A stretch of DNA of 64,000 nucleotides, from the NCBI RefSeq assembly GCF_003990445.1, contig NZ_REEZ01000003.1:218625-282624 (forward strand), in the 5' to 3' direction. This stretch comes from Pararhodobacter zhoushanensis. Lineage in GTDB: Bacteria; Pseudomonadota; Alphaproteobacteria; Rhodobacterales; Rhodobacteraceae. The notes under the pieces were generated by a model that had not been told where the DNA came from, did not search any database, and was given only the letters and a program-made list of their open reading frames with translations. The translations under genes were made by a program, and so were the position numbers. Positions 17,013 through 64,000 of the stretch are shown piece by piece (position 1 is the stretch's first letter; every line of letters begins with the position of its first letter).

Positions 17013-17118
17013 GGTGAGGCCTTGCGATGGAGCCGGGCAACGGGGGCCGGGAAGGGCGCTGTGAGCGCCCGGTCAGGGCCGCGGCACGAGCTGTGCGCCG
17101 CGACCGCAGAAGGCGATA

Positions 17119-19239: not shown

Positions 19240-19261
19240 CTGATGTTCCTTTCCGGGGGGC

Positions 19262-20023: not shown

Positions 20024-21495
20024 CAGAAGACCGGCGGGTAGGGGCGGCCGCCACGATCCAGCGTGATCCAGCGGGTTTCGGTGAAGGTCTCGATCGACCA
20101 GCGCCCACCGTGACGGCCAAGGCCCGAGGCTTTGGAGCCGCCGAAGGGGACGTGCGGTTCGTCATTCACCGAGGTACAGTTGATGTGGCACATGCCGGTT
20201 TCCAACCGCTTGGTCATGGCCAGCGCGCGGGCTTCGTCGCGGCTGAAGATGCCCGCCGAGAGGCCGTATTCGGTGTCGTTGTTGAGCGCGATGGCCTCGT
20301 CATCGGTGCGAAAGGGGATGACCGGGACAACGGGGCCGAAGGTCTCGTCGCGGTAGATCAGCATGTCGGGGGTGACGCCGGTCAGCAGCGTCGGCTGGAC
20401 AAAGCGCCCGGTGATCTTGCCGCCGGTGACGACTTTCGCGCCCTTGGCGATGGCGTCATCAAGCTGGGCTTTGACGCGGGCGACCTGGCGGTCGTTGATC
20501 AAGGGGCCGATGACGTTAGCAGGGTCGGCGCTGTCGCCGACTTTCAGTTTTGCAGCCCGTTCGGCGAATTTGGGCAGGAATTCAGCGTATACCTTTTCAT
20601 GCACCAGCACTTTTTCAACACTCATGCAGATCTGGCCCTGATGCATGAAGCTGCCGAAATTGGCGGCCTGGGCGGCGCGGTCCAGATCGGCATCGTCGAG
20701 TATGATCAGGCTGTCCTTGCCGCCCAACTCAACGCAGGCCTTTTTCAGATGCGCGCCCGCCTTGGCGGCGATGGCGCGGCCGACGGGGGTGGAGCCGGTG
20801 AAGGAGATGCCTTTGACATAGGGGTGCTCGATCAGCTCATCGCCCATCGCGGCGACGCCTTCGCGCGCGCAGGTGACGACGTTGAAGACACCGGGGGGGA
20901 CGCGGGCCTCTTCCATAATCTCGGCAAAGTAGAGGCCACCGATCCAGGGCGTGTCCTCGGACGGTTTGAGCACGATGGTGTTGCCAGCGGCCAGCGCGAA
21001 GGCGAAGCCGCGCGCGGTCAGGACGCCGGGGAAATTCCACGGGCTGATCACCGAAATGACGCCCATCGGGTAGCGCACGCCGGTTGAGACCTTGCCGTAT
21101 TCGGACGGCAGCACCTCACCGAGCGGCTGGTAGCAGATGGCGGCGGCGGAGCGGAAGACTTCGGTGACGTAATGCGCCTCGAACGCGCCCTTGCCGTACC
21201 AGCCGCCGCCCTCGGCCTGCGCGCAGGCGATGAAGTCGGGCGCGCGGCGTTCCCAGATGTCGCTGATGCGGTTGAGCAGATGCGCGCGCTCGGTGAATTT
21301 CATCTCGGCCCAGGCCGGAAAGGCGGCGTGGGCGGCCTCGATGGCGGCGCGGGCATCGCTGCGCGTGCCGTCCGGGGCTTCGGCGAACAGCGCGCCGGTC
21401 GAGGGGTTGATGTCGGCGAAGTTGCGGGCAGTGCGGACCCATTGGCCGTTGATGTACTGGCCTCGGATCGTTTTGGCGGCGGGGGCGTCGAGCAT
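20023..21495 (-). CDS. NAD(P)-dependent aldehyde dehydrogenase family protein
   Basis: 490-aa ALDH resembling the vanillin / benzaldehyde dehydrogenase subgroup. The cofactor segment ISPWNFPG is near residue 150 and FTGSTPVGRAIAAKAG near 228. The general-base glutamate is in CVELGGKDSLI near 253, and the catalytic cysteine in HQGQICMSVEKV near 287. It oxidises an aldehyde to the acid. It starts 1 bp after livF ends and runs into the SDR gene. That placement suggests the imported compound, or a product of it, is an aldehyde or alcohol; this is inference from operon structure. Confidence 0.9.
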   Translation of the reverse strand: MLDAPAAKTIRGQYINGQWVRTARNFADINPSTGALFAEAPDGTRSDARAAIEAAHAAFPAWAEMKFTERAHLLNRISDIWERRAPDFIACAQAEGGGWYGKGAFEAHYVTEVFRSAAAICYQPLGEVLPSEYGKVSTGVRYPMGVISVISPWNFPGVLTARGFAFALAAGNTIVLKPSEDTPWIGGLYFAEIMEEARVPPGVFNVVTCAREGVAAMGDELIEHPYVKGISFTGSTPVGRAIAAKAGAHLKKACVELGGKDSLIILDDADLDRAAQAANFGSFMHQGQICMSVEKVLVHEKVYAEFLPKFAERAAKLKVGDSADPANVIGPLINDRQVARVKAQLDDAIAKGAKVVTGGKITGRFVQPTLLTGVTPDMLIYRDETFGPVVPVIPFRTDDEAIALNNDTEYGLSAGIFSRDEARALAMTKRLETGMCHINCTSVNDEPHVPFGGSKASGLGRHGGRWSIETFTETRWITLDRGGRPYPPVF

Positions 21496-21496
21496 G

Positions 21497-22639
21497 TCAG
21501 ACCTCGGTCTTGTCGAACTGCGATGTGCCGGGGCGGCGGCGGTAGATGTCGACGCGGCCTCCCGGGATCGGGGTGGGGGCGCCGGTGGTGGGGCGTTGTT
21601 TTATGGGTGCGGCGGCGGTGGGCGCGTTGGTGCGGGCTTGCGGGCGCAGGGGCGGCAGCGAGGAGGGGCGCGGTTGGCGGGCGGCGCTCTCGATGGCCGA
21701 AAGGGTTTGGTGCAAATGGTCGGGGCGCGGGGCGCTGGCCGTGTAGGCGGGGGTGAGCGTGCTGGGCGGGCGCACGGCTTTTTGCGCGGCGCTGGCGACG
21801 AGGGCGTCGATGTCGAGGCCCGCGATCTGTGATGAGGGGACGGTGGCTGTCGGCCTTGCACGCGGGGTTGGGGTGACGGGCGCGGGTTGCGGGGCTGGGG
21901 TCGGCTTGGCCGGGCCGGTGGCGTGACTGGCGGCACCGCCGAGATAGGCGGCTTGGACGGCGGGGTCGTGCAGCAGGACCGAGGCTTTATCCTCGCGCAG
22001 GATGCGGCCGTTTTCGAGCAGGTAGCCCCGGTCGGCGATGGCAAGGCTGAGCTTGGCGTTTTGCTCGACCAGAAGGATGCCGAGACCGGCAGCGCGCACG
22101 GCCTTGAGGTTCTGGAAGAGTTCTTTGGCGAGCAGGGGCGACAGGCCGAGGCTGGGTTCGTCCAGCATCAGGATTTCCGGGTTGGACATCATCGCGCGAC
22201 CGATGGCGACCATCTGCTGCTCACCGCCCGACATGGTGCGCACGGTCTGTCCGGCGCGGTCGGTCAGCTTGGGGAACAGGCGGATGAGGCGCTCGAAATT
22301 GGCGTCGGCCTCTTCGCGGGCGCGCTGCGGGTTCGCGCCCAGCAGCAGGTTCTCGCGCACGGTGAGGTCGCCGAAGATCCCGCGCCCCTCAGGGACCAGC
22401 GCGATGCCGCGTTCGACAACCTTGTGGGCGGGAAGGCCGAGCACGGGGTCGGACCCCATGGTGACACTGCCGGTCGTCTGCCCTTCGCAGATCCCGGCGA
22501 TGGCTTTGAGCAGGGTGGACTTGCCCGCCCCGTTGGCGCCCAGAATGACGACGATCTCACCCTTTTTCACGCTGAGCGCGGTGTCGGTGAGGGCGGTGTG
22601 TTTGCCGTAGCGGACGGATAGGCCAGCGATTTCAAGCAT
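21497..22639 (-). CDS. livF: HAAT-family ABC transporter ATP-binding protein (LivF-like) with long Pro/Ala tail
   Basis: 380-aa ATPase. The first ~235 residues are a normal LivF domain: Walker A GANGAGKST near 36, signature MSGGEQQMVAIGRA near 135, Walker B ILMLDEPSLGLSP, and the H-loop in LLVEQNAKL. Residues ~236-380 form a Pro/Ala/Thr-rich, probably disordered extension not usual in LivF. It ends with a basic GGRVDIYRRRPGT patch. Translation probably starts at ATG 22639, overlapping livG by 8 bp; an ATG two codons earlier exists. It powers uptake with LivG. Confidence 0.9.
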   Translation of the reverse strand: MLEIAGLSVRYGKHTALTDTALSVKKGEIVVILGANGAGKSTLLKAIAGICEGQTTGSVTMGSDPVLGLPAHKVVERGIALVPEGRGIFGDLTVRENLLLGANPQRAREEADANFERLIRLFPKLTDRAGQTVRTMSGGEQQMVAIGRAMMSNPEILMLDEPSLGLSPLLAKELFQNLKAVRAAGLGILLVEQNAKLSLAIADRGYLLENGRILREDKASVLLHDPAVQAAYLGGAASHATGPAKPTPAPQPAPVTPTPRARPTATVPSSQIAGLDIDALVASAAQKAVRPPSTLTPAYTASAPRPDHLHQTLSAIESAARQPRPSSLPPLRPQARTNAPTAAAPIKQRPTTGAPTPIPGGRVDIYRRRPGTSQFDKTEV

Positions 22640-23363
22640 CGTCATCCCCCAGATAGGCGCGGATCACTTCGCGGTCAGAGAGAACCTCGGCGGGTGTGCC
22701 CTCGGCGATCTTGGTGCCCGAAGACATGACCACGCAGCGGTCACACAGGCTGCGGATGGCGTCCATGACATGTTCGACAAGGATGATCGTGCGGCCCTCG
22801 TCGCGCAAGGATTTGATCAGGTCGATGCCGGTGGACAGCTCGGTCGGGTTGAGACCGGCGAGCCATTCGTCGAGCAGCAGCACCTCGGGCTCTCCGGCCA
22901 GCGCGCGGGCGAGTTCGACGCGCTTGGTGTCGATATAGGTGAGGGCCGAGACGGGCAGGCCCGCGACCTGCCCCAGACCGAGGCGGTCGAGCAGGGTGTG
23001 GGCGAAACGCTCGGCCTCGGGCCCCCAGCGGCGGCGATGGCCGAAGGCGGCACCGGCAAGGACGTTTTGCGTGACGGTGAGTTCGGGCAGCAGGCGGACC
23101 AGCTGGAAGGTGCGCCCGACCCCAAGGCGCGCGACCTTGTGGGCGGGCTGCCCGGCCAGCTCGCGACCGTTCAGCTGGATCGACCCGGCGCTGGGCACGA
23201 AACTGCCCGAGATCATGTTGATCATCGTCGATTTGCCCGAGCCGTTGGGGCCGATGATGCCCATCACCTGATGCTCGGTCACGTCAAAGCTGACACCGTT
23301 CACGGCGACCAGACCGCCGAAACGCTTGGTCACGTCGCGGGCTTGCAGGATGATTTTGCTCAT
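22632..23363 (-). CDS. livG: HAAT-family ABC transporter ATP-binding protein (LivG-like), variant signature
   Basis: 243-aa ATPase starting at MSKIILQARDV. Walker A is GPNGSGKSTMINMISG near residue 37. The C-terminal LivG-type segments GLNPTEL and ILVEHVMDAIRSLCDR are present. The usual LSGGQ-like signature is replaced by LTYIDTKRVELARAL, and the Walker B that normally reads LLDEP reads LLLDEWLAGLNP. The catalytic glutamate is retained but the following proline is lost. Its start overlaps livM by 4 bp. Confidence 0.9.
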   Translation of the reverse strand: MSKIILQARDVTKRFGGLVAVNGVSFDVTEHQVMGIIGPNGSGKSTMINMISGSFVPSAGSIQLNGRELAGQPAHKVARLGVGRTFQLVRLLPELTVTQNVLAGAAFGHRRRWGPEAERFAHTLLDRLGLGQVAGLPVSALTYIDTKRVELARALAGEPEVLLLDEWLAGLNPTELSTGIDLIKSLRDEGRTIILVEHVMDAIRSLCDRCVVMSSGTKIAEGTPAEVLSDREVIRAYLGDDDA

Positions 23364-24283
23364 TGGTTGCCCCCGTAGCGGCGGCGCAGGCGGTCCCAGA
23401 GGCCGACGAAACCGCCGGGCAGGACGTAGACGATCAGCAGGAAGGCGAGGCCAAGGAGGAGCAGGGTCTGGTTGGGGGCTTGGCGGGTGATCGCTTCCCA
23501 CAGTAGGGTGAAGGGGATCACCCCGGCGATGGGGCCCCAAAGGCGGCCGGTGCCACCAAGCAGCGCCATGATGACGACCTGGAACGACAGCAGCGGCGCG
23601 AAAGCGGTCGAGGGTTCGATGTAGATATAGCGCGGGGCGAGGATGGCGCCGGTGGCGGCAGCGGCGGCTCCGGGCACCATGAAGAGCAGCACTTTGGCCA
23701 GCGCGGTGTCGATGCCGGAATGCTTGGCGACGGTTTCGTCATTGCCGATGATGCGCAGGGCAAAGCCCAGTTTCGAGCGCCCGATCAGCCAGCCCGCAAG
23801 GAAGACGAGGGAGGCAAGGGCGATGAGCATCCAGTAGATTTCACGCTCGGTCAGCGAGGTCAGGACATACATCCCCCGGTGGCCGGTCTGGTTTTGTACC
23901 CAGGTGACGACCTGCCGGACCATCTCGGCCAGACCGAGGGTGAAGATGACGAAATAGACGCCCGACAGGCGCAGGGTGACCATGCCGACCAGTGCGGCCA
24001 ACACCGCGCCGAGGGCGGCGGCGATGACGGGGAGGGTCCAGAACGGCAGGTCCTGAAACCCAAGGCCGGTGACGAAGGTGCCGACGCCGAAGAAGGCGGC
24101 GGTGGCGAGCGAGATGTAATGCGTGGGGCCGGAGAACAGCGCCCAGGAGGTCGAGAGCACGGCATACATGGCGATGGTGGTGCCCATGGTCAGCCAATAG
24201 GGCGAGCCGTAGACGGGCAGCAGGCAGCAGAGGCCGATCAGCAGGGCCGAGACGATCAGGTTGCGGATCTCGCGGGTGCTCAT
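23360..24283 (-). CDS. livM: HAAT-family ABC transporter permease (LivM-like)
   Basis: 307-aa inner-membrane permease with about ten hydrophobic segments. The conserved LivM loop LRIIGNDETVAKHSGID lies near residues 174-190, before LAKVLLFMVPGAAAAATGA. GGTGRLWGPIAG, typical of the family's C-terminal half, follows. It pairs with LivH to form the channel. Four-base overlaps with both the upstream livH and the downstream livG indicate one transcript. Confidence 0.92.
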   Translation of the reverse strand: MSTREIRNLIVSALLIGLCCLLPVYGSPYWLTMGTTIAMYAVLSTSWALFSGPTHYISLATAAFFGVGTFVTGLGFQDLPFWTLPVIAAALGAVLAALVGMVTLRLSGVYFVIFTLGLAEMVRQVVTWVQNQTGHRGMYVLTSLTEREIYWMLIALASLVFLAGWLIGRSKLGFALRIIGNDETVAKHSGIDTALAKVLLFMVPGAAAAATGAILAPRYIYIEPSTAFAPLLSFQVVIMALLGGTGRLWGPIAGVIPFTLLWEAITRQAPNQTLLLLGLAFLLIVYVLPGGFVGLWDRLRRRYGGNQ

Positions 24284-25146
24284 GTCGGTTTCTTTCCGAA
24301 CAGACCCTGCGGGCGGAACAGCAGCACGGCTAGGAAGAGGAAATAGGCGGCGGCGAGGGTGAGGCCGGGGTCGATCAGCCGGGCGACGGCGGTTTCGGCA
24401 ATGCCGAGAATTAGCGCGGCAATGATGGTGCCACGGATGTCACCAACGCCGCCCATAATGACGATGATCAGGGCTTTCATGGTGAAGAGCACGCCGACCG
24501 ACGCATCGAGGGTGAAGAACATTGAAATTAGCGAGCCTCCGGTCGCAGTGATCGCACCGCCCAGTGCGAAGGCGAGGGCCGAGGTGGCCTTGACGTCGAT
24601 GCCGACCAGCCGGGCCGAGCGCGGGTTAACGGCGACGGCGCGCATCCTGAGCCCGGCACGGGAATAGGTGAGCCAGAGCCAGAGCGCAGCGGCGATCACG
24701 GTGGCGATCAGGAAGGCGACGATGCGGTTCTGCGCGTAGGACGAGCCGAACATCTCGAACGGCTGGGCAAGGAAGGCATAGTTGAAATACCCGCCGCCAA
24801 AAACCCAGGTCATCACGCCGACAAAGGCAAAGGACATGCCGAAGGTCGCAAGAATGCTGTCGGTTTCCAGCTGGCCCCGGTTTTTGGCGCGGGTGACCAG
24901 CGGTTGCAGCATGACGCGGTAGAGCACCCAGTTCACGGCGAAGGCCAGGGGTGCCACGACGATCAGCGCGGCGATGGGGTTCACCTGACCGGCGGTGTAG
25001 ACCCAGAAGGCAGCGAAGCCTCCGGCGACCAGCATCTCGCCATTGGCGAGGTTCATGATGCGCGCCACGCCGTATTGCAGGTTCAGCCCCATGGCGATGA
25101 GCGCATAGGTGCCGCCCAGCAAAAGGCCGGTGATCAGGATGAACAT
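24280..25146 (-). CDS. livH: HAAT-family ABC transporter permease (LivH-like)
   Basis: 288-aa inner-membrane permease. The start LITGLLLGGTYALIAMGLNLQYGV is the hallmark LivH N terminus, followed by RIMNLANGEMLVAGGFAAF. The cytoplasmic loop MRAVAVNPRSARLVGIDV and the GGVGDIRGTIIAALILGI segment also fit. Eight or nine hydrophobic segments are visible. It is second in the operon, 63 bp after the binding-protein gene, and overlaps livM by 4 bp. Confidence 0.92.
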   Translation of the reverse strand: MFILITGLLLGGTYALIAMGLNLQYGVARIMNLANGEMLVAGGFAAFWVYTAGQVNPIAALIVVAPLAFAVNWVLYRVMLQPLVTRAKNRGQLETDSILATFGMSFAFVGVMTWVFGGGYFNYAFLAQPFEMFGSSYAQNRIVAFLIATVIAAALWLWLTYSRAGLRMRAVAVNPRSARLVGIDVKATSALAFALGGAITATGGSLISMFFTLDASVGVLFTMKALIIVIMGGVGDIRGTIIAALILGIAETAVARLIDPGLTLAAAYFLFLAVLLFRPQGLFGKKPT

Positions 25147-25209
25147 CAGGGTACGTCCGCCGTCTGGAAAATGGGGCGGCGGCGCAAGGGATGCGCCGCC
25201 GCGGTTGGG

Positions 25210-26418
25210 TTATTCCCAGCCGTCGAAGACTTGAACCGGCACAGCACCCTCGCGGCCACGCGCCGCGACGCCGCGGAACACGCCGTCTTGCCATTGGCCG
25301 ACGGTCCAGTAGGCCTCGTTATCGTTGTTCTCGTTGAACGATACCGGACCGAGGACGGTCTCATAGGAATGCGAGCGGTCCTGCAGGTAGGTGAGGACTG
25401 CGGCGCGGTCAGGGGCGCCGACAGCCTCGATCGCCTGACCAAGGATTTCCAGCGTGGCGTAGGTGGCGGCAGAGGCCCAGAAGTCCGGTCCCTGACCGTT
25501 CAGCTCGGTGTGGGCCGTGGCGAAAGCCTGAAACGCGGGATCATCGGCATTGACGCCCCCCATGCCCAGGACGCCTTCGGCGGCAGCGCCGAAGCGGGCT
25601 TCATAGGCCGGGAAAGCGGTGGCGACGGCGGTGAAGAACACGTGCGGGGCGAAGTTCTGCACGATGGCCTGATCGGTCAGCGCGAAGGTGTCGCCGGGAT
25701 AGGACCACGCGATGAACGCGTCAGGGTTCGAGGCTTTGGCACCGTCGATCACCGGGGCCAGATCCTGCGTGCCCAGCGGGTACGAGGATTCGTAGACGAT
25801 CTCGAACCCGTTGGATTCCAGCACGCTGCGCGAGATGCCGGCCATTTCGATGCCGAAAGCATCGGCGACGTTGACCAGCGCCACGCGGTTGCCGATCTCG
25901 CCGCGCTCACGCAGGTCAACGAGCACATGGGCGGTGTCTTCGGCCATGACCGAAGTGCGGCCGAGCACGAAGAACATGTTGGGGAATTGCTGGGCCAGTT
26001 CCGGCTGTTGGTCGGTCACGGCGGTGCCGGTGATCATCGGATAACCGAGCTGGGCAAAGACAGGCGCTGCGGCAAGGTTCATGCCGGTGGAATAGGGCGC
26101 GACCATGAAGTCGACCTGATCCTGCGTGGCAAGGCGCTGGGCGGCCATGATCGCCTGTTGCGGGTTGGTCTGGTCGTCATATTCGATCAGCTCGATGGTC
26201 GCCGGGCCATCGGCCAGCTGCAACCCTCCGCGCGCGTTGACTTCGCTCACCCACAGGCGAACGGCCGGCCAGTGCGTCACGGTTGCGCCCCCGGCGAGCG
26301 GGCCGGTCATGGGGGCAGCGGCCCCCAGACGGATCAACGATTGCGCCGAGGCGCTTGACAGCGTGGCAACCGCCAGCGCGGCCACGGCAGCCGTGGTCAT
26401 CAGAGTTCTGCGAAACAT
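25210..26418 (-). CDS. Periplasmic substrate-binding protein of the HAAT (LivJ/K-like) transporter
   Basis: 402-aa secreted binding protein. A Sec signal peptide (residues 1-25, ending SSASA) precedes a type I periplasmic-binding fold with LIRLGAAAPMTGPLAGG at the start. DDQTNPQQAIMAAQRLATQDQVDFMVAPYSTG and DGAKASNPDAFIAWSYPGD follow; both stretches are typical of amide, urea or aromatic binders as well as branched-chain amino acids. It heads the operon that continues to the flotillin gene. The ligand is unknown; the downstream aldehyde dehydrogenase argues against simple leucine uptake. Confidence 0.9.
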   Translation of the reverse strand: MFRRTLMTTAAVAALAVATLSSASAQSLIRLGAAAPMTGPLAGGATVTHWPAVRLWVSEVNARGGLQLADGPATIELIEYDDQTNPQQAIMAAQRLATQDQVDFMVAPYSTGMNLAAAPVFAQLGYPMITGTAVTDQQPELAQQFPNMFFVLGRTSVMAEDTAHVLVDLRERGEIGNRVALVNVADAFGIEMAGISRSVLESNGFEIVYESSYPLGTQDLAPVIDGAKASNPDAFIAWSYPGDTFALTDQAIVQNFAPHVFFTAVATAFPAYEARFGAAAEGVLGMGGVNADDPAFQAFATAHTELNGQGPDFWASAATYATLEILGQAIEAVGAPDRAAVLTYLQDRSHSYETVLGPVSFNENNDNEAYWTVGQWQDGVFRGVAARGREGAVPVQVFDGWE

Positions 26419-26586
26419 GGAATCTCCCCCTATCGTTTGAGGCGGCTGGGCCGCCCGGTTTTAGCGCGCGATAGCGAGAGAGCCGTGATCGCCGGGCTTT
26501 GGGCCATCCCCTCCTCAGGACAACGACCAGAGCCTTGCGATCCCTCTCGACAGCGACGCGTGGCGGACGCTCCCGTCATCCGCTCG

Positions 26587-26594
26587 TGTATACA
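26587..26594. promoter_or_regulatory. TGTATACA palindrome (candidate operator 1)
   Basis: Eight-base perfect palindrome about 170 bp upstream of the binding-protein gene. The same core recurs at 26791. TGTATACA-type cores are common in GntR/FCD regulator sites. No regulator gene is adjacent, so the assignment is speculative. Confidence 0.35.
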
Positions 26595-26788
26595 GAATGC
26601 ACCCTTCAAACGGCATTTCAACCCCTTTTTGCGAAAGTTTTCGCTGGGTTAGCGGGTCGGTATGCAGTGAGCGCAAGGGTTTGGAATGCGGGCTGCTTGC
26701 CTCGCATTTGCAGAAAAATGCTCTGCTGCGGGTGCATATTTGTGAGAAATCAAGCGTGTCGATTATGCTGCGCTGCGCGAATCCGGGG

Positions 26789-26800
26789 AATGTATACATT
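26789..26800. promoter_or_regulatory. AATGTATACATT palindrome (candidate operator 2)
   Basis: Twelve-base perfect palindrome with the same TGTATACA core as 26587, 164 bp upstream of the GTA portal start. The two sites are about 204 bp apart, which could allow looping between dimers. The regulator is unknown. Confidence 0.4.
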
Positions 26801-26848
26801 GTTTGGGGCTTGGCGCTTGCAAAACGCATGGCGGAGCGGGTGTTGCAT

Positions 26849-26866
26849 GTTCGGCGGGCACCGAAC
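26849..26866. promoter_or_regulatory. GTTCGG-N6-CCGAAC dyad upstream of the GTA
   Basis: Perfect 6-bp inverted repeat with a 6-bp spacer, ending 97 bp before the portal start codon. It is in a suitable place for a GTA transcription activator or repressor. It does not match the GTTCN7GTTC direct repeat of alphaproteobacterial LexA. Confidence 0.4.
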
Positions 26867-26963
26867 GCAGGCTCTGCGCTTCTTCAAGAAATAGGGTCGA
26901 TAACCCCTCACCAAGCCGAGGCACCGGGCCGTTTCCGGGGCAGCGTGACAGGGAGGCAGGTGC

Positions 26964-28160
26964 ATGTTCGATCTTTTTCGCAAGCCGTCGGGAGCACCCG
27001 AGGCCAAGGCCTCGGCCGTTGGCCCGCTGACGGCTGGGGGTGTGGGCCGCATGGCGGCGATGCAGGGAACGACCCAGCCGCGCTGGACCGCCCGCGATAC
27101 GGTGTCGCTGACCCGTGCCGGGTTTCAGGGCAACCCGGTGGGGTTTCGCGTGGTGCGGCTGATCTCGGAAGCGGCGGCGGCGCTGCCGCTGGTTTTGCAA
27201 GATTGCGAGCGCCGCTACGAGCAGCACCCGCTGTTGGCGCTGCTGCGCCGTCCGAACCCGGCGCAGGGGCGGGCCGAGTTCCTTGAGGCGATCTATGCGC
27301 AGTTGCTGTTGTCGGGCAACGCCTATGTGGAGGCGGTGGCCGCAGCGGAGGGGGGCGTGCCGGGTGAGCTGCATGTGCTGCGCTCGGACCGGATGAGCGT
27401 GGTGCCGGGCGCGGACGGCTGGCCGGCGGCGTATGACTACGCAGTGAGCGGGCGCAAACACCGTTTCCACATGGGAGAGGGCGCGGCACCGATCTGTCAT
27501 GTGCGGGCCTATCATCCGTTGGACGATCACTATGGGTTGTCGCCCATTGAGGCCGCAGCTTCGGCGCTGGATGTCCATAACAGCGCAAGCCGCTGGTCCA
27601 AGGCGCTTTTGGACAATGCCGCGAGGCCCTCGGGGGCGATCATCTTCAAGGGCGACGATGGCGTGGGCACGATGTCGAACGAGCAGTTCGAACGGTTGCA
27701 GAGCGAGATGGAGACCCACCATCAGGGTGCGCGCAACGCCGGGCGGCCGATGCTGCTGGAGGGCGGGCTGGACTGGAAACCGATGGGCTTCAGCCCCTCG
27801 GACATGGAATTTCACAAGACCAAGGAAGCCGCCGCACGCGAGATCGCCTTGGCGTTTGGTGTGCCGCCCATGCTGCTGGGCATCCCCGGCGATGCGACCT
27901 ATGCCAATTACGCCGAGGCGAACCGGGCGTTCTTTCGCCTGACGGTGCTGCCGCTGGCGGGCAAGGTGGCCGAGTCGCTGTCGCATTGGCTGTCCGGTTT
28001 TGCCGGGGTCGATCTGGCGCTGAAACCCGATCTGGATCAGGTGCCCGCGCTGGCGGTCGAGCGGGATCAGCAATGGCAGCGGGTGCTGGGTGCAGGCTTT
28101 CTGAGCGATGCCGAAAAGCGCGCGATGCTGGGGCTGCCCCCTGTGGCTGACGGCGCATGA
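26964..28160 (+). CDS. orfg3: GTA portal protein (HK97 family), g3
   Basis: 398-aa portal protein forming the head vertex ring through which DNA passes. PRWTARDTVSLTRAGFQGNPVGFRVVRLISEAAA at the N terminus and DHYGLSPIEAAASALDVHN near residue 192 match HK97-type portals. So do the MLLEGGLDWKPMGFSPSDMEF and GVPPMLLGIPGDATYANYAEA stretches. GGGAGG lies seven bases before the ATG. It is the first gene of the cluster here, whereas g1 and g2 normally precede it. Its stop overlaps g3.5 by 4 bp. Confidence 0.94.
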   Translation: MFDLFRKPSGAPEAKASAVGPLTAGGVGRMAAMQGTTQPRWTARDTVSLTRAGFQGNPVGFRVVRLISEAAAALPLVLQDCERRYEQHPLLALLRRPNPAQGRAEFLEAIYAQLLLSGNAYVEAVAAAEGGVPGELHVLRSDRMSVVPGADGWPAAYDYAVSGRKHRFHMGEGAAPICHVRAYHPLDDHYGLSPIEAAASALDVHNSASRWSKALLDNAARPSGAIIFKGDDGVGTMSNEQFERLQSEMETHHQGARNAGRPMLLEGGLDWKPMGFSPSDMEFHKTKEAAAREIALAFGVPPMLLGIPGDATYANYAEANRAFFRLTVLPLAGKVAESLSHWLSGFAGVDLALKPDLDQVPALAVERDQQWQRVLGAGFLSDAEKRAMLGLPPVADGA

Positions 28161-28402
28161 ACGCGCAGCGCAAGGCAGTCGGTGGATCGCGGTTTCTGTA
28201 CGACAGTTTCGATCTGGCACAGGCGCGGATCGATGCGCAGGAGCGCGTCGAGGACGAGCGCCGCGCGGGGCTGGAGTACCGGCTGGGTCGCATCGAGGAC
28301 GAGCTGCTGCGGCTTGAGAAGCGGCTGTGGCTGGCGGTGTACGGCGTGGCCTCGGGCGTGTTGGTGCATGGCGCGGTGGCCTTTCTGGCAACGCAGATGT
28401 GA
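28157..28402 (+). CDS. orfg3.5: GTA head formation protein g3.5
   Basis: 81-aa protein with a charged helical N-terminal half (YDSFDLAQARIDAQERVEDE, then LGRIEDELLRLEKRLW). A C-terminal hydrophobic segment (residues 58-78, LWLAVYGVASGVLVHGAVAF region) follows. It corresponds in place, size and pattern to the small RcGTA gene between portal and protease (rcc01685 family). The ATGA overlap with g3 indicates coupling. The precise role is not settled. Confidence 0.85.
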   Translation: MNAQRKAVGGSRFLYDSFDLAQARIDAQERVEDERRAGLEYRLGRIEDELLRLEKRLWLAVYGVASGVLVHGAVAFLATQM

Positions 28403-28411
28403 GGAGGCAGG

Positions 28412-28948
28412 ATGCACGGTCTTGAGACGAAGTTTCATCAGCCGGGCGGCGCCGGGTTGGCGCTGACGGACGGGTCGGTGATTGCGGGCTATGCCTCGGT
28501 CTTTGGGGTGCGCGACCGGGGCGGTGATGTGGTCATGCCCGGTGCCTATGCCGCGTCGCTGGCGCGGATCAAGGCGGCCTCGGGCCGGGTGCGCATGCTG
28601 TGGCAGCACGATCAGGGCCAGCCGATTGGTGTCTGGGACGAGGTGGTCGAGGATGCGCACGGACTGCGCGTCAAGGGCCGCCTGCTGAACGAAGTCGAGA
28701 AGGGCCGCGAGGCGGCGGCGCTGATGGCGGCGGGGGCGGTTGATGGGCTGAGCATTGGCTACCGCACGATCCGGGCGGAAAAGCTGCCCGACGGTGGGCG
28801 CAAGTTGATCGAGCTGGAGCTGTGGGAAGTGTCGCTGGTGACCTTTCCGATGCTGCCCGACGCGCGGGTTTCGGCCAAGTCCGACGCCGGTTTTATGGGT
28901 GAGCTGGCGCGGGCGCTTGAGGCGGCGCGTGAGGCGCTCAGTCGCTGA
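28412..28948 (+). CDS. orfg4: GTA prohead protease (HK97 family), g4
   Basis: 178-aa serine protease that cleaves the capsid N-terminal arm during head maturation. The N-terminal GYASVFGVRDRGGDVVMPGAY is diagnostic. MLWQHDQGQPIGVWDE (near residue 66) carries the active-site histidine, and AVDGLSIGYRTI (near 112) the nucleophilic serine. WEVSLVTFPMLPDARV closes the domain. GGAGG precedes the ATG nine bases after g3.5. It is followed by a hairpin-bearing 105-bp gap before the capsid gene. Confidence 0.94.
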   Translation: MHGLETKFHQPGGAGLALTDGSVIAGYASVFGVRDRGGDVVMPGAYAASLARIKAASGRVRMLWQHDQGQPIGVWDEVVEDAHGLRVKGRLLNEVEKGREAAALMAAGAVDGLSIGYRTIRAEKLPDGGRKLIELELWEVSLVTFPMLPDARVSAKSDAGFMGELARALEAAREALSR

Positions 28949-29001
28949 GGCGTTTCCGATTTTAGGTGAGACACGTGCCCCCTTCGGGGAGCGCGGTGGG
29001 G

Positions 29002-29024
29002 GCGGGTTGCCCGAGGGAACCCGC
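29002..29024 (+). other. Hairpin between g4 and capsid gene
   Basis: GCGGGTT (29002-29008) pairs perfectly with AACCCGC (29018-29024), and an inner CCC/GGG pairing extends the stem. It sits in the 105-bp gap just ahead of the capsid ribosome-binding site (AAAGG at 29040). It could mark RNA processing or protect the capsid message 5' end. Confidence 0.5.
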
Positions 29025-29053
29025 GCAGTGGCAACCATGAAAGGATGGATGCG

Positions 29054-30265
29054 ATGAGCAGCGAGTTTCCCGGCCCTGTGAGCCAGGAGAAAAGCGCGAC
29101 GCGGCAGCCCATTGGCGAGGCGACGCAAGTGACGAAGGCGCTGGAGGGTTTCGTGACGGAAATCAAAACCTTCCGCGCTGATATGATGGGCACTCTGAAA
29201 GAACAGGACGAGCGACTGACCATGCTGGATCGTAAATTCACCACCAAAACCGCCCGCCCCGTGCTGGCACAGGCTGACGCGGGCGAAGGCCTGCACCTCA
29301 AGGCGTTCGACGCCTATCTGCGTCAGGGCGACGACGACGGCCTGCGCGGCCTTGTGCTTGAGGGCAAGGGGCTGAATACCGCCGTCAATTCGGAAGGCGG
29401 CTATCTGGTCGATCCGCAGACCTCGGACCGTATTCACGCGGTTCTCGATGCCTCGGCGTCGATCCGCGCGATTGCCAGCGTGGTGCAGGTCGAGGCGGGC
29501 TCGTTCGATGTGCTGGTCGATCACGGCGATGTCGGTTCGGGCTGGGAGACGGAATCGTCGTCGATCACCGAGACGGGCAGCGCGGCCATCGACCGCATCT
29601 CGATCAAGCTGCACGAACTGTCGGCGATGCCGAAGGCCTCGCAGCGGCTGCTGGAAGACAGCGCGTTTGACGTCGAGGGCTGGCTGGCCGAGCGCATCGC
29701 GATGAAATTCGCCCGCGCCGAAGCGGCGGCCTTCATCAGCGGCACCGGCACCGATCAGCCGCGCGGGTTCCTGGACCATGACATCGTGGCCAATGGCACC
29801 GAAGTCTGGGGCGAACTGGGCTATGTCGCCACCGGCGCTGCGGGCGATTTCGACGCCACCAACCCGGCGGATGCCATCGTCGATCTGGTCTATGCGCTGG
29901 AGGCGGGCTACCGCGCCAATGCGGCCTTCGTGATGAACTCGAAGACCGCCGGTGCCGTGCGCAAGATGAAGGACGCCGATGGCCGCTTCCTGTGGTCGGA
30001 CGGTCTGGCTGCCGGTGAGCCTGCGCGCCTGATGGGCTATCCGGTGCTGATCGCCGAGGACATGCCCGACATCGCCGCCAACGCCCATGCCGTCGCCTTT
30101 GGTGACTTCCGCGCGGGCTATACCGTGGCCGAACGCCCCGATCTGCGCGTGCTGCGCGATCCGTTCAGCGCCAAGCCGCATGTGCTGTTCTACGCGACCA
30201 AGCGCGTGGGCGGTGATGTGACCGATTTCAGCGCTATCAAACTGCTGAAATTCGCCGCGTCGTAA
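29054..30265 (+). CDS. orfg5: GTA major capsid protein (HK97 family), g5
   Basis: 403-aa capsid precursor. Residues 1-~95 form a helical delta domain, removed by the g4 protease in this family. The HK97 fold then begins near LNTAVNSEGGYLVDPQTSDRIH. DVGSGWETESSSITETGS, KLHELSAMPKASQRLLEDS and GTGTDQPRGFLDHDIVANGT are classical strands of the shell. Conserved C-terminal motifs include NAAFVMNSKTAGAVRKMKDADGRFLW and LLGYPV-like LMGYPVLIAEDMP. ATG 29054 has AAGGA eight bases upstream; ATG 29045 is the alternative. It is isolated by hairpin gaps on both sides. Confidence 0.94.
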   Translation: MSSEFPGPVSQEKSATRQPIGEATQVTKALEGFVTEIKTFRADMMGTLKEQDERLTMLDRKFTTKTARPVLAQADAGEGLHLKAFDAYLRQGDDDGLRGLVLEGKGLNTAVNSEGGYLVDPQTSDRIHAVLDASASIRAIASVVQVEAGSFDVLVDHGDVGSGWETESSSITETGSAAIDRISIKLHELSAMPKASQRLLEDSAFDVEGWLAERIAMKFARAEAAAFISGTGTDQPRGFLDHDIVANGTEVWGELGYVATGAAGDFDATNPADAIVDLVYALEAGYRANAAFVMNSKTAGAVRKMKDADGRFLWSDGLAAGEPARLMGYPVLIAEDMPDIAANAHAVAFGDFRAGYTVAERPDLRVLRDPFSAKPHVLFYATKRVGGDVTDFSAIKLLKFAAS

Positions 30266-30281
30266 GCGTGGAGTGAGATTG

Positions 30282-30393
30282 GGCCGGTCCCGTCGGGGCC
30301 GGTTCGATGGCGGCGCAGGCGCGCGCGGGAAGGTCCGGTTGGACCCATCGTCCCGCACCGTCCGGCTGCTCCCCTCCGTGCGAGCGGTGCGGG
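30282..30393 (+). other. Cluster of three hairpins after the capsid gene
   Basis: In the 175-bp gap between g5 and g6 three stems are visible. One is CCGGTCCC with GGGGCCGG (about 30284-30302, 3-nt loop, one G-U pair). The second is GGTCC-GGTT-GGACC (30332-30345). The third is CCCGCACCG (30352-30360) with CGGTGCGGG (30385-30393). None has a U-run, so a simple intrinsic terminator is unlikely. Partial attenuation or 3'-end stabilisation of capsid mRNA is plausible. Confidence 0.5.
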
Positions 30394-30440
30394 AGCGTGT
30401 CTGCGCCGGTCAGCGCGTTGAACGGGTCAAGGAGGCCAGC

Positions 30441-31028
30441 ATGGATCTGATCGAAACCAGCGTTGTGGACGACGGCGACCTGCCGGTCGCTGACTTTCGC
30501 GCGCATCTGCGGTTGGGCGCGGGCTTTGCTGACGAGGCGACAGGAGACCCGCTGCTGGTGCAATACCTGCGGGCAGCGATTGCGGCGGTTGAGGCGCGGA
30601 TCGGCAAGGCTCTGATGAGCCGCGATTTCCGGCTGATCCTGCCCTGTTGGCGCTGGGCGGATGCGCAGGCGCTGCCGGTGGCGCCGGTGACGGCGGTGGC
30701 AGCGGTGACGATGATTGGCGGCGACGGCGTGCCCGCGGTGGTCGATCCGGCGCGGTGGCGTCTGGTGGTGGACCGTCACCGCCCGCAGCTGCTGGCGACG
30801 GGTGCGGTGTTGCCGGGGGTGCCGACAAACGGCCGGGTCGAGGTCGACTTCACCGCCGGGTTCGGGGCGAGCTGGGACGCGGTGCCGGACGATCTGCAAC
30901 AGGCGGTGATGCTGCTGGCGGCGCAGTTTTATGAGGGGCGCACGGGGGGTGAACTGGGCTCGGGACCGGTGGCGGCTCTGGTGGCGCGCTGGATGCCCGT
31001 TCGGGTGACGGCAGGGGGGCATCGCTGA
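30441..31028 (+). CDS. orfg6: GTA head-tail connector protein, g6
   Basis: 195-aa protein of the phage gp6-like head-tail connector group, which adds the ring below the portal. The pattern VADFRAHLRLGAGFADEATGD, then LVQYLRAAIAAVEARIGKAL near residue 38, is the connector's helical signature. VEVDFTAGFGASWDAVPDDLQQAVMLLAAQFYEGRTG near 130-165 is the typical C-terminal helix pair. ATG 30441 follows AAGGAGG; the frame is open from 30273 but that part lacks similarity. It overlaps g7 by one base. Confidence 0.9.
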   Translation: MDLIETSVVDDGDLPVADFRAHLRLGAGFADEATGDPLLVQYLRAAIAAVEARIGKALMSRDFRLILPCWRWADAQALPVAPVTAVAAVTMIGGDGVPAVVDPARWRLVVDRHRPQLLATGAVLPGVPTNGRVEVDFTAGFGASWDAVPDDLQQAVMLLAAQFYEGRTGGELGSGPVAALVARWMPVRVTAGGHR

Positions 31029-31363
31029 TGGCTTATGCACTGACGCGCCCGATGGTGCTGGAGGAACCCGGCACAACGCCCGATGGCGCGGGCGGGTTCA
31101 CCACCAGCTGGACGGCGCTGGGCACGCTGTGGGCCGAGTTGCGCGCGGGGTCGGGGTCTGAGCGGCGCGGGCTGATCGCGCCCGAAGGGCGGATGCTGTA
31201 TCGCGTCTATCTGCGCGCCGCCCCTCAGGGCAGCCCGCAGCGCCCGCGACCGGATCAACGCCTGCGCGAAGGCGGGCGGATCTTCACCATTCTGGCGGTC
31301 AGCGAGGCCGATCCGAGCGGGGCCTATCTGGTGTGCCACGCGCGCGAGGAGGTTCCGGCATGA
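31028..31363 (+). CDS. orfg7: GTA head-tail adaptor, g7
   Basis: 111-aa b-rich protein of the phage head-tail adaptor (SPP1 gp16-like) family. It contains TPDGAGGFTTSWTALGTLWAELR and ends in a short strand pair, FTILAVSEADPSGAYLVCHARE. It probably forms the stopper or adaptor ring between connector and tail. Its start codon shares a base with the g6 stop and its stop overlaps the g8 start (ATGA). Confidence 0.88.
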   Translation: MAYALTRPMVLEEPGTTPDGAGGFTTSWTALGTLWAELRAGSGSERRGLIAPEGRMLYRVYLRAAPQGSPQRPRPDQRLREGGRIFTILAVSEADPSGAYLVCHAREEVPA

Positions 31364-31767
31364 GCTATCAGAACGCGGCGGCCGTACAGGTCGCGCTTTA
31401 TGACCTGCTGAGCGGCGATGCGACACTGGCGGGTCTGGTGCCTGGCGGCATCTTCGACGCGCCGCCCCCGGCCACCCCGCAGGGCACCTATGTGGTGCTG
31501 GGTGAAGAGGACGTCATCGACCGCTCGGACGTGAGTGGGCCGGGGGCCGAGCACCGGGTTCTGGTGCAGGTGGTCAGCGATGCGGCGGGGTTCTTGACCT
31601 CGAAGACGGCGGCGGCGCGGATCGGAGAGATCCTGCCGGGCAGCCAGCCGAGCCTGAGCAGCGGTCGGGTGGTCGCGATCTGGTTCCATCAGGCGCAGGC
31701 GCGCCGGGCCGAAGGGGCCGCGTTGCGGCGGATCGATCTGCGCTTTCGCGTGCGGGTCGAGGGTTAA
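31360..31767 (+). CDS. orfg8: GTA DUF3168 tail-completion protein, g8
   Basis: 135-aa DUF3168 protein, the family of phage tail terminators. The N-terminal helix QVALYDLLSGDATLAGLVPGGIFD and PQGTYVVLGEEDVIDRSDVSGPG are diagnostic, and HRVLVQVVSD and FRVRVEG strands follow. ATG 31360 overlaps the g7 stop; an in-frame ATG at 31333 lies inside g7. It caps the tail tube at the head side by analogy with relatives. Confidence 0.9.
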   Translation: MSYQNAAAVQVALYDLLSGDATLAGLVPGGIFDAPPPATPQGTYVVLGEEDVIDRSDVSGPGAEHRVLVQVVSDAAGFLTSKTAAARIGEILPGSQPSLSSGRVVAIWFHQAQARRAEGAALRRIDLRFRVRVEG

Positions 31768-31792
31768 GTTTCAGACATAAGGAGTGGCGGGC

Positions 31793-32290
31793 ATGGCTGT
31801 GCAAAGCGGCAAGGATCTGTTGATCAAACTGGACGTGACCGGGGCCGGTCAGTTCGAAACCATCGCGGGGCTGCGCGCCACGCGCATCAGCTTCAACGCC
31901 GAGACGGTCGATGTGACCAGTCTGGACAGCGAAGGCGGCTGGCGCGAGTTGCTGGCCGGTGCCGGGGTCAAGGCGGCGTCGATCTCGGGGTCGGGCGTGT
32001 TCCGGGATGAGGGCACGGATGAGCGGGCGCGGGCGGTGTTCTTCAACGGCGAGATCCCGGCGTTTCAGGTGGTGATCCCCGATTTCGGCACGGTCGAAGG
32101 GCCGTTCCAGATCACCAGTCTGGACTATGCGGGCAGCTACAACGGCGAGGCGACCTATGAGTTGTCGATGGCCTCGGCCGGCGCGCTGTCGTTCGTGTCG
32201 GCGACCGAACTGGCCTTGGCGCCCGAGGATTACGAGGGCGACGGCGGCGATCAGCCCGAGCCGGACGAAGGCAGCGGTGAGCCGGTCTGA
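31793..32290 (+). CDS. orfg9: GTA major tail tube protein, g9
   Basis: 165-aa tail protein. VQSGKDLLIKLDVTGAGQFETIAGLRATRISFNAE at the N terminus, VDVTSLDSEGGWRELL, and GSYNGEATYELSMASAGALSFV near the end are the standard features of the phage major tail protein family found in GTAs. The C-terminal ~20 residues are strongly acidic (EDYEGDGGDQPEPDEGSGEP). ATG 31793 follows AAGGAG at 8 bp; GTG 31784 is less likely. It overlaps g10 by one base. Confidence 0.92.
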   Translation: MAVQSGKDLLIKLDVTGAGQFETIAGLRATRISFNAETVDVTSLDSEGGWRELLAGAGVKAASISGSGVFRDEGTDERARAVFFNGEIPAFQVVIPDFGTVEGPFQITSLDYAGSYNGEATYELSMASAGALSFVSATELALAPEDYEGDGGDQPEPDEGSGEPV

Positions 32291-32613
32291 TGGCCAATCC
32301 GCTGGCGGGCGAGGTGGCGCTGGTTCTGGACGGTCAGCGCCACCGGTTGAAGCTGACGCTGGGCGCGCTGGTCGAACTCGAGCAGGCGCTGGGCGCGGAC
32401 AGTCTGGTGGCGCTGGTCGAACGCTTTGAAACGGGGCGATTTTCGGCGCGCGACGTTATGGCGCTGATCCTGGCCGGTTTGCATGGCGGCGGCACGCCGG
32501 TGGCGGCCTCGGTCCTGCTGAGCGCCGAGATCGAGGGTGGCCCGGTCGAGGCGTCGCGGGTCGCCGGGCAGCTTTTGGCACGCGCGTTCAGCGCGCCGGG
32601 GGCGGCGGGGTGA
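32290..32613 (+). CDS. orfg10: GTA tail assembly chaperone-like protein, g10
   Basis: 107-aa protein of the gene-transfer-agent family (Phage_TAC_11 type). LAGEVALVLDGQRHRLKLTLGALVELEQALGADSLVALVERFETG and the helix SARDVMALILAGLHGGG are characteristic. By position between tail tube and tape measure it is the first of two tail chaperones. It is coupled to both neighbours by overlaps of 1 and 4 bp. Confidence 0.9.
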   Translation: MANPLAGEVALVLDGQRHRLKLTLGALVELEQALGADSLVALVERFETGRFSARDVMALILAGLHGGGTPVAASVLLSAEIEGGPVEASRVAGQLLARAFSAPGAAG

Positions 32614-32951
32614 GTGCGCTGGACTGGCCGGGGCTGATGCGCGCCGGGATGCACGGGCTGGGGCTGCGTCCGATTGAGTTCTGGGCGCTGACCCCGGCGG
32701 AACTGATGATCATGCTGGGCCGCGACGAGGCTGCGGGCAGCGGGTTCACCCGCGCCCGGCTGGACGCGCTGCTGGCGCGCTACCCGGACGGTCCGGGGCA
32801 GGGAAAAGAGGCAGGACATGGCAACACTGGACGAGTTGAACGCGCAGCTGGCCGAGCTGGAAGCGCGGATGGGATCGACGGCGGATCTGGTGGGGTCGCT
32901 CGATTCGTCTCTGGCCGACATGGGCCGCTCTCTGGGCGACACCAGCCGTGA
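32610..32951 (+). CDS. GTA phage tail assembly chaperone g10.1, running on into g11
   Basis: Begins at GTG 32610, overlapping g10 by 4 bp. Residues 1-~65 (MSALDWPGLMRAGMHGLGL, RPIEFWALTPAELMIMLG, then ARLDALLARYPDG) match the short GTA chaperone (rcc01693-like), normally about 65-75 aa. No stop follows, and residues 70-113 are read out of frame from the tape-measure gene, giving a Gly/Arg-rich shadow sequence. Either the stop was lost by mutation, there is an indel near 32800, or a longer product or frameshift is real. A shift into the third frame would end at 32839. Confidence 0.7.
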   Translation: MSALDWPGLMRAGMHGLGLRPIEFWALTPAELMIMLGRDEAAGSGFTRARLDALLARYPDGPGQGKEAGHGNTGRVERAAGRAGSADGIDGGSGGVARFVSGRHGPLSGRHQP

Positions 32952-33471
32952 AATGGCGGGCCTGTCGCGCAGTCTGGGCACCGGGGTGCGCCGCGCTTTT
33001 GACGGGGTGATCTTTGACGGCATGCGTCTGTCGGATGCGATGCGCGGCTTGGGTCGGTCGATCAGCGATGCGCTCTATTCCGCCGCGATGCGCCCGGTGC
33101 AGGGCGCGCTGGGCGGGGCACTGTCGTCGGTGGTTGGCGGGCTGATGAACAGCGTGCTGCCCTTTGCCAATGGCGCGTCGTTCAGTCAGGGCCGGGTGAT
33201 GCCCTTCGCGCAGGGCGGCGTGGTGTCCTCGCCGGTGAGTTTCCCGATGCGCGGCGGCACCGGCCTGATGGGCGAGGCCGGACCCGAAGCGATCCTGCCG
33301 CTGGCGCGCGGCGCTGACGGGCGGCTGGGGGTGCGTGGGGCTGGTGGCGGGCGGGCAACCAGCGTGGTGATCAACGTCCACACGCCCGATGTCGCCGGGT
33401 TTCAGCGCAGCCAGAGCCAGATCGCCGCGCAGATGCAGCGCCTGCTGGCGCAAGGGCAAAGGAATTACTGA
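32818..33471 (+). CDS. orfg11: GTA tail tape measure protein, g11
   Basis: 217-aa tape measure, short as in RcGTA particles with their short tails. The N-terminal half is helical (TLDELNAQLAELEARMG, then SLDSSLADMGRSLGDTSREM). A middle segment SDAMRGLGRSISDALYSAAMRPVQGALGGALSS precedes the conserved GGVVSSPVSFPMRGGTGLMGEAGPEAILPLARG near 135-165. The final segment is RATSVVINVHTPDVAGFQRSQSQIAAQMQR. GAGG lies seven bases before ATG 32818, inside the 3' part of g10.1. Confidence 0.93.
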   Translation: MATLDELNAQLAELEARMGSTADLVGSLDSSLADMGRSLGDTSREMAGLSRSLGTGVRRAFDGVIFDGMRLSDAMRGLGRSISDALYSAAMRPVQGALGGALSSVVGGLMNSVLPFANGASFSQGRVMPFAQGGVVSSPVSFPMRGGTGLMGEAGPEAILPLARGADGRLGVRGAGGGRATSVVINVHTPDVAGFQRSQSQIAAQMQRLLAQGQRNY

Positions 33472-33473
33472 CC

Positions 33474-34106
33474 ATGGCATTTCACGATATCCGCTTTCCC
33501 GCCACGCTGAGCTTTGGCTCGCTGGGCGGGCCGGAGCGCCGGACCGAGATCGTCACGCTGGCGAACGGGTTCGAGGAACGAAACACCCCCTGGGCGCAGG
33601 CCCGGCGGCGCTATGACGCGGGGCTGGGGCTGCGTTCGCTCGACGATGTCGAACAACTGATCGCGTTTTTCGAGGCGCGTCAGGGCATGCTGCACGGGTT
33701 CCGCTGGAAAGACTGGGCGGATTTCAAGACCTGCCGCGCCTCGCAATCGGTGGGGCCGCTGGACCAGTCGCTGGGCTTTGGCGACGGGGTGACGACCGTG
33801 TTCCAGCTGTCGAAAACCTATCGCTCGGGCGAGTGGGCGTCAGCCCGTGTGATTGCCAAGCCGGTGGCCGGAACGGTGCGGGCGGCGATTGGCGGGACCG
33901 AAGTGGGTGAGGCGGTGGAGTGGTCGGTCGACACCTCCAGCGGCCAGATCACCTTCACCTCGCCGCCGGGTGTAGGGGCCGAGATCACCATCGGCTGCGA
34001 GTTCGACGTGCCGGTGCGGTTTGATACCGATCTGGTGCAGGTCTCGGTCGCCAGTTTCAAGGCGGGCGAGGTGCCCAAGGTGCCGGTGATCGAGGTGCGC
34101 CAATGA
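33474..34106 (+). CDS. orfg12: GTA distal tail protein DUF2460, g12
   Basis: 210-aa DUF2460 protein. IRFPATLSFGSLGGPERRTEIVTLANGFEERN at the N terminus, the LIAFFEARQGMLHGFRWKDWADFKT core and FGDGVTTVFQLSKTY are diagnostic. The C terminus has FDVPVRFDTDLVQVSV. In RcGTA this is a tail component near the baseplate hub. AAGGAA precedes the ATG. Its end overlaps g13 by 4 bp. Confidence 0.93.
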   Translation: MAFHDIRFPATLSFGSLGGPERRTEIVTLANGFEERNTPWAQARRRYDAGLGLRSLDDVEQLIAFFEARQGMLHGFRWKDWADFKTCRASQSVGPLDQSLGFGDGVTTVFQLSKTYRSGEWASARVIAKPVAGTVRAAIGGTEVGEAVEWSVDTSSGQITFTSPPGVGAEITIGCEFDVPVRFDTDLVQVSVASFKAGEVPKVPVIEVRQ

Positions 34107-34966
34107 GCGAGGTGATCACCACCCGCGCCCGCGCCTGGGCGCTGAGCCGCGCCGATGGCACGGTGCTGGGCTTTACCGACCATGACCGCGATCTGAGCTT
34201 TGACGGGATGGCGTTTCGGGCCGGGACCGGCATGACCGCCAGCGCCATCATGCAGGGCACCGGGCTGGCGGTGGACAACACCGAGGCCGCAGGCGCGCTG
34301 AGCGACGCGGCGCTGCGTGAGGATGACATCCTTGCCGGGCGCTATGACGGGGCCGAGCTGACCATCTGGGAGGTCGACTGGACTGACCCCACCTGGCGGC
34401 GTGTGCTGTTTCGCGGCGCGCTGGGCGAGATCACGCGGGCGGGCGGGGCGTTCAAGGCCGAGCTGCGCGGGCTGACCGAGCCGCTGTCGCAAAGCGGCGG
34501 GCGGGTGTTTGGGGCGCTGTGCCCGGCGGTGCTGGGCGATGCGGACTGTGGCTTCGATCTGGATCAGCCGGGGTTCGTGGCCGAGGTGGATCTGCTGGGC
34601 GTCGATGAGGGCGGCGCGGTGCTCGATCTGCCCGAGCTGCCCGACTACGCCGCCGACTGGTTCGTCGACGGGCAGGCGCGGTTCCTGACGGGCGCGGCCG
34701 CAGGCATGGCGGTGCCGGTGCGGCGCGAAGAGCGGGCCGGCACGCTGCGGCGGCTGCATCTGTGGTCGGTGCCGGGGTTTGCACCTGCGGCGGGCGACCG
34801 GGTGCGGGTTGAGGCGGGGTGCGACAAGCGATTCCAGACCTGCCGCTTCAAGTTCCTCAATACGCTGAATTTTCAGGGCTTCCCGCATGTACCCAGCGAC
34901 GACTGGCTGCAGGCCACGCCGCGCGCGGATGGCCCCAATACCGGCGGCAAGCGGCCCAATGGCTGA
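34103..34966 (+). CDS. orfg13: GTA hub protein DUF2163, g13
   Basis: 287-aa DUF2163 / phage BR0599-like protein. TTRARAWALSRADGTVLGFTDHDRDLSFDG at the N terminus and LSQSGGRVFGALCPAVLGDADCGFDL near residue 132 are typical, with conserved cysteines. GCDKRFQTCRFKFLNTLNFQGFPHVP near the C terminus carries further conserved cysteines; RcGTA hub proteins of this type can bind an Fe-S cluster, which these cysteines would allow. It overlaps g12 and g14. Confidence 0.92.
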   Translation: MSEVITTRARAWALSRADGTVLGFTDHDRDLSFDGMAFRAGTGMTASAIMQGTGLAVDNTEAAGALSDAALREDDILAGRYDGAELTIWEVDWTDPTWRRVLFRGALGEITRAGGAFKAELRGLTEPLSQSGGRVFGALCPAVLGDADCGFDLDQPGFVAEVDLLGVDEGGAVLDLPELPDYAADWFVDGQARFLTGAAAGMAVPVRREERAGTLRRLHLWSVPGFAPAAGDRVRVEAGCDKRFQTCRFKFLNTLNFQGFPHVPSDDWLQATPRADGPNTGGKRPNG

Positions 34967-35390: not shown

Positions 35391-35409
35391 TCGAAAAGGA
35401 GCCATCGGT

Positions 35410-39635: not shown

Positions 39636-39703
39636 GTTCGGGCCACTGGAAAATCCGGTCCGATCGTTTATCTTTGTGGGCAGACAAGCTGCGGAGAAGC
39701 GCG

Positions 39704-63992: not shown

Positions 63993-64000
63993 ATAAGGGT

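Follow-up and report, generated by a model that had tools for sequence, protein, structure and literature searches.

An RcGTA-type operon cut between terminase and portal genes in Pararhodobacter zhoushanensis, with both halves probably maintained

The window analysed here is a 64,000-nucleotide stretch of the Pararhodobacter zhoushanensis genome (C23:218625-282624; genome of 4.83 Mb in 56 contigs, 99.99% complete), which carries the shell and tail genes of an RcGTA-type element. The cluster begins at the portal gene g3 with no terminase genes upstream, as a first-pass annotation had reported and as Pfam and the gene calls in the window confirm, and its description of a divergent transporter operon followed by 545 non-coding bp before g3 was also borne out. 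The features of the window, together with the distant large terminase gene on the same contig, are as follows.

15348..17448, - strand: secD and yajC, the old left neighbours of fabF-mltG-g1-g2 (Pfam; order in G222 and seven other genus genomes)
17668..17691, + strand: dispersed intergenic repeat, a copy bordering the exchanged block on its left (exact match; shuffles predict none)
17698..26418, - strand: filler block with a flotillin-like gene, an aldehyde dehydrogenase, a branched-chain-type ABC transporter and its binding protein (Pfam)
25210-26418, - strand: divergent solute-binding protein gene (Peripla_BP_6), the nearest gene upstream of g3
26419..26963, no strand: non-coding gap before g3 (545 bp, GC 0.593), without the g1 promoter module
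26587-26594: second TGTATACA
26789..26800, no strand: palindrome AATGTATACATT, probable operator of the transporter operon
26898..26963, + strand: what is left of the former g2-g3 spacer (aligns at 72-75% with that spacer and the beginning of g3 in G258, G248 and G250)
26964-28160, + strand: g3, portal, first gene of the remaining shell/tail operon (Phage_portal, E 1.6e-93; 98% identical in G264; dN/dS 0.026)
28157..39348, + strand: g3.5 to g15, including head and tail completion, tail tube, chaperones, g12, g13 and g14 (Pfam for most genes)
28412-28948, + strand: protease gene (Pfam)
29045-30265, + strand: capsid gene (Pfam)
35410-39348, + strand: g15, GTA_TIM, end of the cluster (Pfam)
C23:370737-371357, same strand as g3: g2, large terminase, open frame, the sole Terminase_6N gene in the genome

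Beyond g3 the remainder of the shell/tail cluster is present, as first described, and Pfam recognises most of its genes: protease, capsid, head completion, tail completion gp17, tail tube, GTA-gp10, tail assembly chaperone, DUF2460, gp84-like, NlpC/P60 and the GTA_TIM gene g15, whilst g6 gave a weak match below the family cut-off and g3.5 and g11 had no Pfam family match. The element therefore has RcGTA-type head-tail homologues up to and including g15 (g3.5 and g11 excepted), and does not form one contiguous head-tail cluster starting with g1-g2, as g2 lies ~124 kb from g3. A serine acetyltransferase gene directly follows g15 (window 39674-40507); in R. capsulatus a cysE1 gene reportedly plays a role in GTA transfer (PMC9552610). 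No terminase remnant was seen when the gap was aligned to the loci compared, in agreement with the earlier reading. A second species with the same split (G264, below) matches the gap throughout, and the other loci align only from 26898 onwards and at the far end, which in the alignments is the start of the transporter gene. The open-reading frame at 26597-27286, which overlaps the gap, had no Pfam family match.

A search of the whole genome recovered the missing genes: g1 (small terminase) and g2 are intact, together and on the same contig ~124 kb downstream, outside the window, which is why they escaped the first-pass annotation. They follow fabF-mltG, their usual neighbours; g1 directly precedes g2, and before g1 lie a terminator-like hairpin and mltG (YceG family). 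A large-terminase gene next to its own g1, the observation named at first pass as decisive on this point, speaks against loss of packaging. That particles are made without DNA, packaging having been lost, is highly improbable: no terminase adjoins g3, but both motor genes are intact elsewhere, carry their promoter module and are under selection.

The cluster is homologous to the RcGTA cluster of R. capsulatus DSM 1710 (g1 38%, g2 69% and g3 72% identical), in which mltG and the same promoter module also precede g1. There, however, g1-g2-g3 are contiguous behind one promoter, whereas here g1-g2 keep the module and g3-g15 lie ~124 kb away without it. In multi-locus GTA genomes, as far as the accessible accounts describe them, the core forms one locus and the distant genes are accessory (spikes, fibres, lysis, regulator); in our genome the break falls within the core, between terminase and portal. 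No core GTA cluster divided at this point was reported in the accessible text of the open-access literature searched (PMC11150451, PMC6363796, PMC9638019, PMC9632790, PMC6854486, PMC6821227, PMC7947584, PMC11841831), most subscription papers being outside that scope.

Gene order upstream of g3 in relatives identifies the ancestral arrangement, in which the g1-g2 block adjoins g3. In G222 the order is C23 219-236 kb, then C23 360-372 kb, then C23 246-277 kb, and the 360-372 kb block also lies before g3 in G258, G249, G250, G256, G248, G257, G260 and G261; the 236-kb neighbour precedes that block in all of these eight except G261, whose contig begins inside the block. As the 246-277 kb stretch is only 9.4 kb from its old upstream neighbour, it was the fabF-mltG-g1-g2 block that left and the transport block that entered. 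The relocation proposed at first pass therefore stands, with its detail amended: the terminase block departed together with fabF-mltG, and the shell cluster stayed (at most 9.4 kb from its old upstream neighbours). By gene order, the comparison shows that a ~11.7-kb block with fabF-mltG-g1-g2 moved out and that a ~9-kb transport/dehydrogenase block fills its old place. A close orthologue of the filler's binding protein is found on other contigs or elsewhere in G258, G248, G249, G256 and G261. Related short repeats occur at two of the four junctions only: the copy at the left edge (17668-17691), and a related inverted repeat pair at the other edge, the landing site (C23:360052 and 360113). The dispersed repeat core GGATATTT has 15 core matches in 182 kb, mostly in a repeat-like context, with copies at window 17668-17691 and 63970-63993 and at C23:236296, 282598, 360052, 391439 and others; two of these sites are at moved-block junctions and one is at a scaffold gap.

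That scaffold gap is the one point in favour of reading the split as a scaffolding or assembly artefact, for it places 10 N on the contig between the two halves. It is the sole N run in C23:218625-400999 and lies directly after the window end, so an assembly gap at g3 is excluded, none of the four junctions falls at it, and another species (G264) has the same junctions without N; an artefact is thus practically negligible as an explanation. G264, a genome assembled in two contigs, has g2 and g3 123.9 kb apart, with g2 96% and g3 98% identical to those of our genome; the two genomes are colinear over a single block of 153 kb (93.9% identity), and the 180 kb of G264 examined contain no N.

Breaks at this joint are uncommon. 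Among 19 genomes of the genus, our own included, 13 have g2 adjoining g3, two have this split (our genome, G000, and G264), one has another split (G251) and three are undecidable (G254, G259, G263); this count was made by eye, accepted adjacency gaps up to ~1.05 kb and includes G255 via a partial g3. Family-wide, g2 and g3 are adjacent in 119 of 125 counted pairs (median gap 172 bp), counted from the best 148 of 217 and the best 147 of 194 matching genomes (248 in total), with 125 shared between the lists, weaker matches not counted and G233, which has two copies of each gene, left out. Of 140 named loci 80 were kept, 68 of these have more than 2.5 kb before g3, and g2 is there in 67, the exception being HLUCCA12 (G251). 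By these counts the g2-g3 joint has been broken on more than one occasion, though rarely. HLUCCA12 resembles our genome in having g2 and g3 on different long contigs (deep inside contigs of 408 and 167 kb) and the module at g1 and not at g3; it was, however, assembled from a metagenome and represents a species further removed (g2 73%, g3 78% identical), with other neighbours, and its split is probably an independent event. Elsewhere, 5.9 kb separate g2 and g3 in G031 and 2.5 kb in G163, and in G131 and G182 the two genes are on different contigs and the case is undecidable. In G242 the shell/tail operon is inverted, with g3 divergent from fabF-mltG-g1-g2 (G242:C18:100166-107295, L146), and a transposase match that is weak and below cut-off lies between the two. 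A GntR/FCD regulator gene sits within the 2.5 kb between g2 and g3 in G163 (G163:C10:260916-263398, L145). These two were the only matches among the open-reading frames chosen at the other breaks, which, in what may be wrong frames, were mostly without a family.

Both halves bear the marks of purifying selection. Nei-Gojobori dN/dS values (own script) for the split pair G000-G264 were 0.21 for g1, 0.065 for g2, 0.026 for g3 and 0.01-0.19 for the remaining shell/tail genes, apart from the open-reading frame called g10.1 (0.55), which partly overlaps g11 and was not used, as the value looks like frame or alignment trouble; the comparison genes fabF and secD gave 0.038 and 0.065. In the unsplit pair G258-G248 the shell/tail genes gave 0.03-0.39, g2 0.065 and g1 1.13 (112 codons, indels), the last of which makes the g1 estimate weak; a lipid A acyltransferase value for this pair (3.7, indels) was set aside as similar frame or alignment trouble. 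As the split is common to both species, the selection measured acted after it, and dS of the GTA genes between them is ~0.1-0.4. Low dN/dS in most genes of two split species indicates maintenance by selection with the host, and purifying selection this clear on most GTA genes speaks against decay and against DNA-free particles. All frames are open in G000. In G264, g2 and g15 have each lost one base and g6 has several small indels; as fabF and a helicase gene show similar one-base deletions, this points to sequencing errors, though it does not prove them.

These values bear directly on a further explanation, that the shell/tail half was silenced on losing the g1 promoter and is in early decay, its open frames reflecting a time lag. 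The lack of a g1-type module or a consensus promoter before g3 would fit silencing, as would the indels that interrupt the frames of g2, g15 and g6 in the G264 assembly. However, with dS already at ~0.1-0.4, dN/dS is still 0.01-0.21 for all but one open-reading frame and near that of the unsplit pair, fabF and secD, the frames of G000 are open, and the one-base deletions of G264 extend to fabF and the helicase gene, so that we consider silencing unlikely. Given the open frames and the low dN/dS of most GTA genes, neither early decay nor DNA-free particles, both raised at first pass, is supported. The remaining first-pass proposal, that the motor has moved elsewhere and that motor and capsid regulation are separated, gains support from the distant g1-g2, the same split in G264 and a module kept at g1 only.

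That module, a promoter, leader and terminator between mltG and g1 (L001 ~945-1060, C23:370176-370281, and relatives), has a fixed layout before g1 that a pattern found in 44 of 47 loci (L018 and L027 were missed, and L062 is too short); 39 of the 44 were aligned (alignment A1; L008, L025, L029, L048 and L060 left out). It runs from TTGAC through a spacer in which G..CG is invariant and a -10 region in which TA is invariant to a conserved CA.GCT.G.A.A block, which is followed by a hairpin rich in G+C and then a T-run. At five of seven consensus pairs, both partners differ in at least one sequence with pairing kept; for three of these five a single sequence shows this, and the covariation term is small. 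R. capsulatus DSM 1710 has the same layout between mltG and g1, and the module was found at E <= 1e-3 in 56 of the 68 named loci. Scanned with a covariance model, each of 10 genomes gave a single strong match, always at g1, and the runner-up had E 0.009; scoring covered the 150 best candidates of each genome. Rfam gave a single match on the g1 locus, far below gathering score and after g2, and no Rfam family covers the module.

The module sits in the region where GafA is reported to bind, which has been placed at the -10 and start site of the RcGTA promoter (PMC6363796) and at the -35/-10 region (PMC9638019). In Caulobacter crescentus, GTA control is described as involving GafY, IHF and GafZ antitermination (PMC11150451): a promoter precedes the first gene, GafZ helps polymerase pass a downstream terminator, and a putative loading site lies between -35 and -10. 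The terminator is placed after the first gene in Caulobacter, whereas in the aligned Rhodobacteraceae the hairpin and T-run lie in a short leader before g1. By this analogy, the leader terminator would be passed by a GafA-modified polymerase, and the g1 module may be a candidate antitermination site of RcGTA-type elements. Regulator and endolysin genes lie elsewhere in the genome. The DUF6456 family, which we take as the marker of GafA (a Caulobacter control for the assignment was positive), has one gene here (C1:820504-820896) and one in each of the 10 genus genomes searched; GH108 endolysin genes are likewise present in 10 of 10, here at C56:64504 and C8:53766. The second of these GH108 genes (G000:C8:53766-54020, L241) is found only in G000 among the ten.

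Before g3, by contrast with g1, profile and direct scans found no g1 module in G000, G264 or G251, and the covariance model no second copy. The best weight-matrix score in the gap was -15.9 vs. 28.9 at g1 (the matrix includes the g1 site of our genome), a consensus scan of the gap turned up nothing resembling a sigma-70 promoter and a single terminator-like site (- strand), in line with chance expectation, and there were no CtrA-type half-sites in the gap. With the g1 module absent, the shell/tail operon would have to use another promoter. GafA is reported to act on both gafA and the endolysin gene (PMC6363796). The g1 matrix, scanned on one strand over the 1500 bases before the family match, scored at best -0.5 upstream of these genes in 19 loci (9 of 10 gafA, 10 of 11 endolysin). 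Because these upstream regions lack a g1-type core though GafA acts on them, the missing core before g3 does not exclude GafA, and an accessory-type GafA promoter there is possible. The end of the gap away from g3 is part of the transporter operon: the palindrome TGTATACA, presumably a GntR-type operator, is also present upstream of the binding-protein orthologue in five relatives. In a 182-kb stretch it occurs twice, both times in the gap (~1.1 expected).

Taken together, we infer, with a probability of about 0.8, that an RcGTA-type operon was cut by a chromosome rearrangement, that its terminase block was relocated and both halves maintained, and that particles are most likely still made. 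As the sequence shows, the block of fabF, mltG, g1 and g2 (~11.7 kb) left the site before g3 for its present place ~124 kb downstream, in the same orientation, and the transport/dehydrogenase block occupies its old place. With both halves under selection since the split, particles are most likely still filled as well as made, their motor proteins presumably supplied from the distant locus. If R. capsulatus and Caulobacter are a guide, GafA would initiate transcription at the motor half and enable polymerase to read through the terminator, and the shell/tail half would be transcribed from some other promoter within the 545-bp gap, perhaps of the accessory GafA type and perhaps influenced by the neighbouring transporter operator. 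More tentatively, packing and shell building may be under separate switches, the motor under a GafA-type antitermination promoter and the shell/tail genes under another promoter beside a nutrient-transporter operator, in which case the cell could set the two apart and selection might have kept this arrangement in two species.

The system is a known one in a new arrangement, and nature thereby offers a test of whether motor and shell have to be controlled jointly. Should both halves be functional, it would follow that a domesticated phage can have its packaging motor and its shell on separate transcripts. The split also separates two questions, GafA control at the g1 promoter and what else drives the shell genes, and the g1 module gives GTA antitermination in Rhodobacteraceae a precisely located candidate site. 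Where a screen demands one contiguous head-tail cluster, elements of this kind may be scored as incomplete or decayed. The part that most deserves attention is a shell operon that has lost the shared promoter and is still under constraint.
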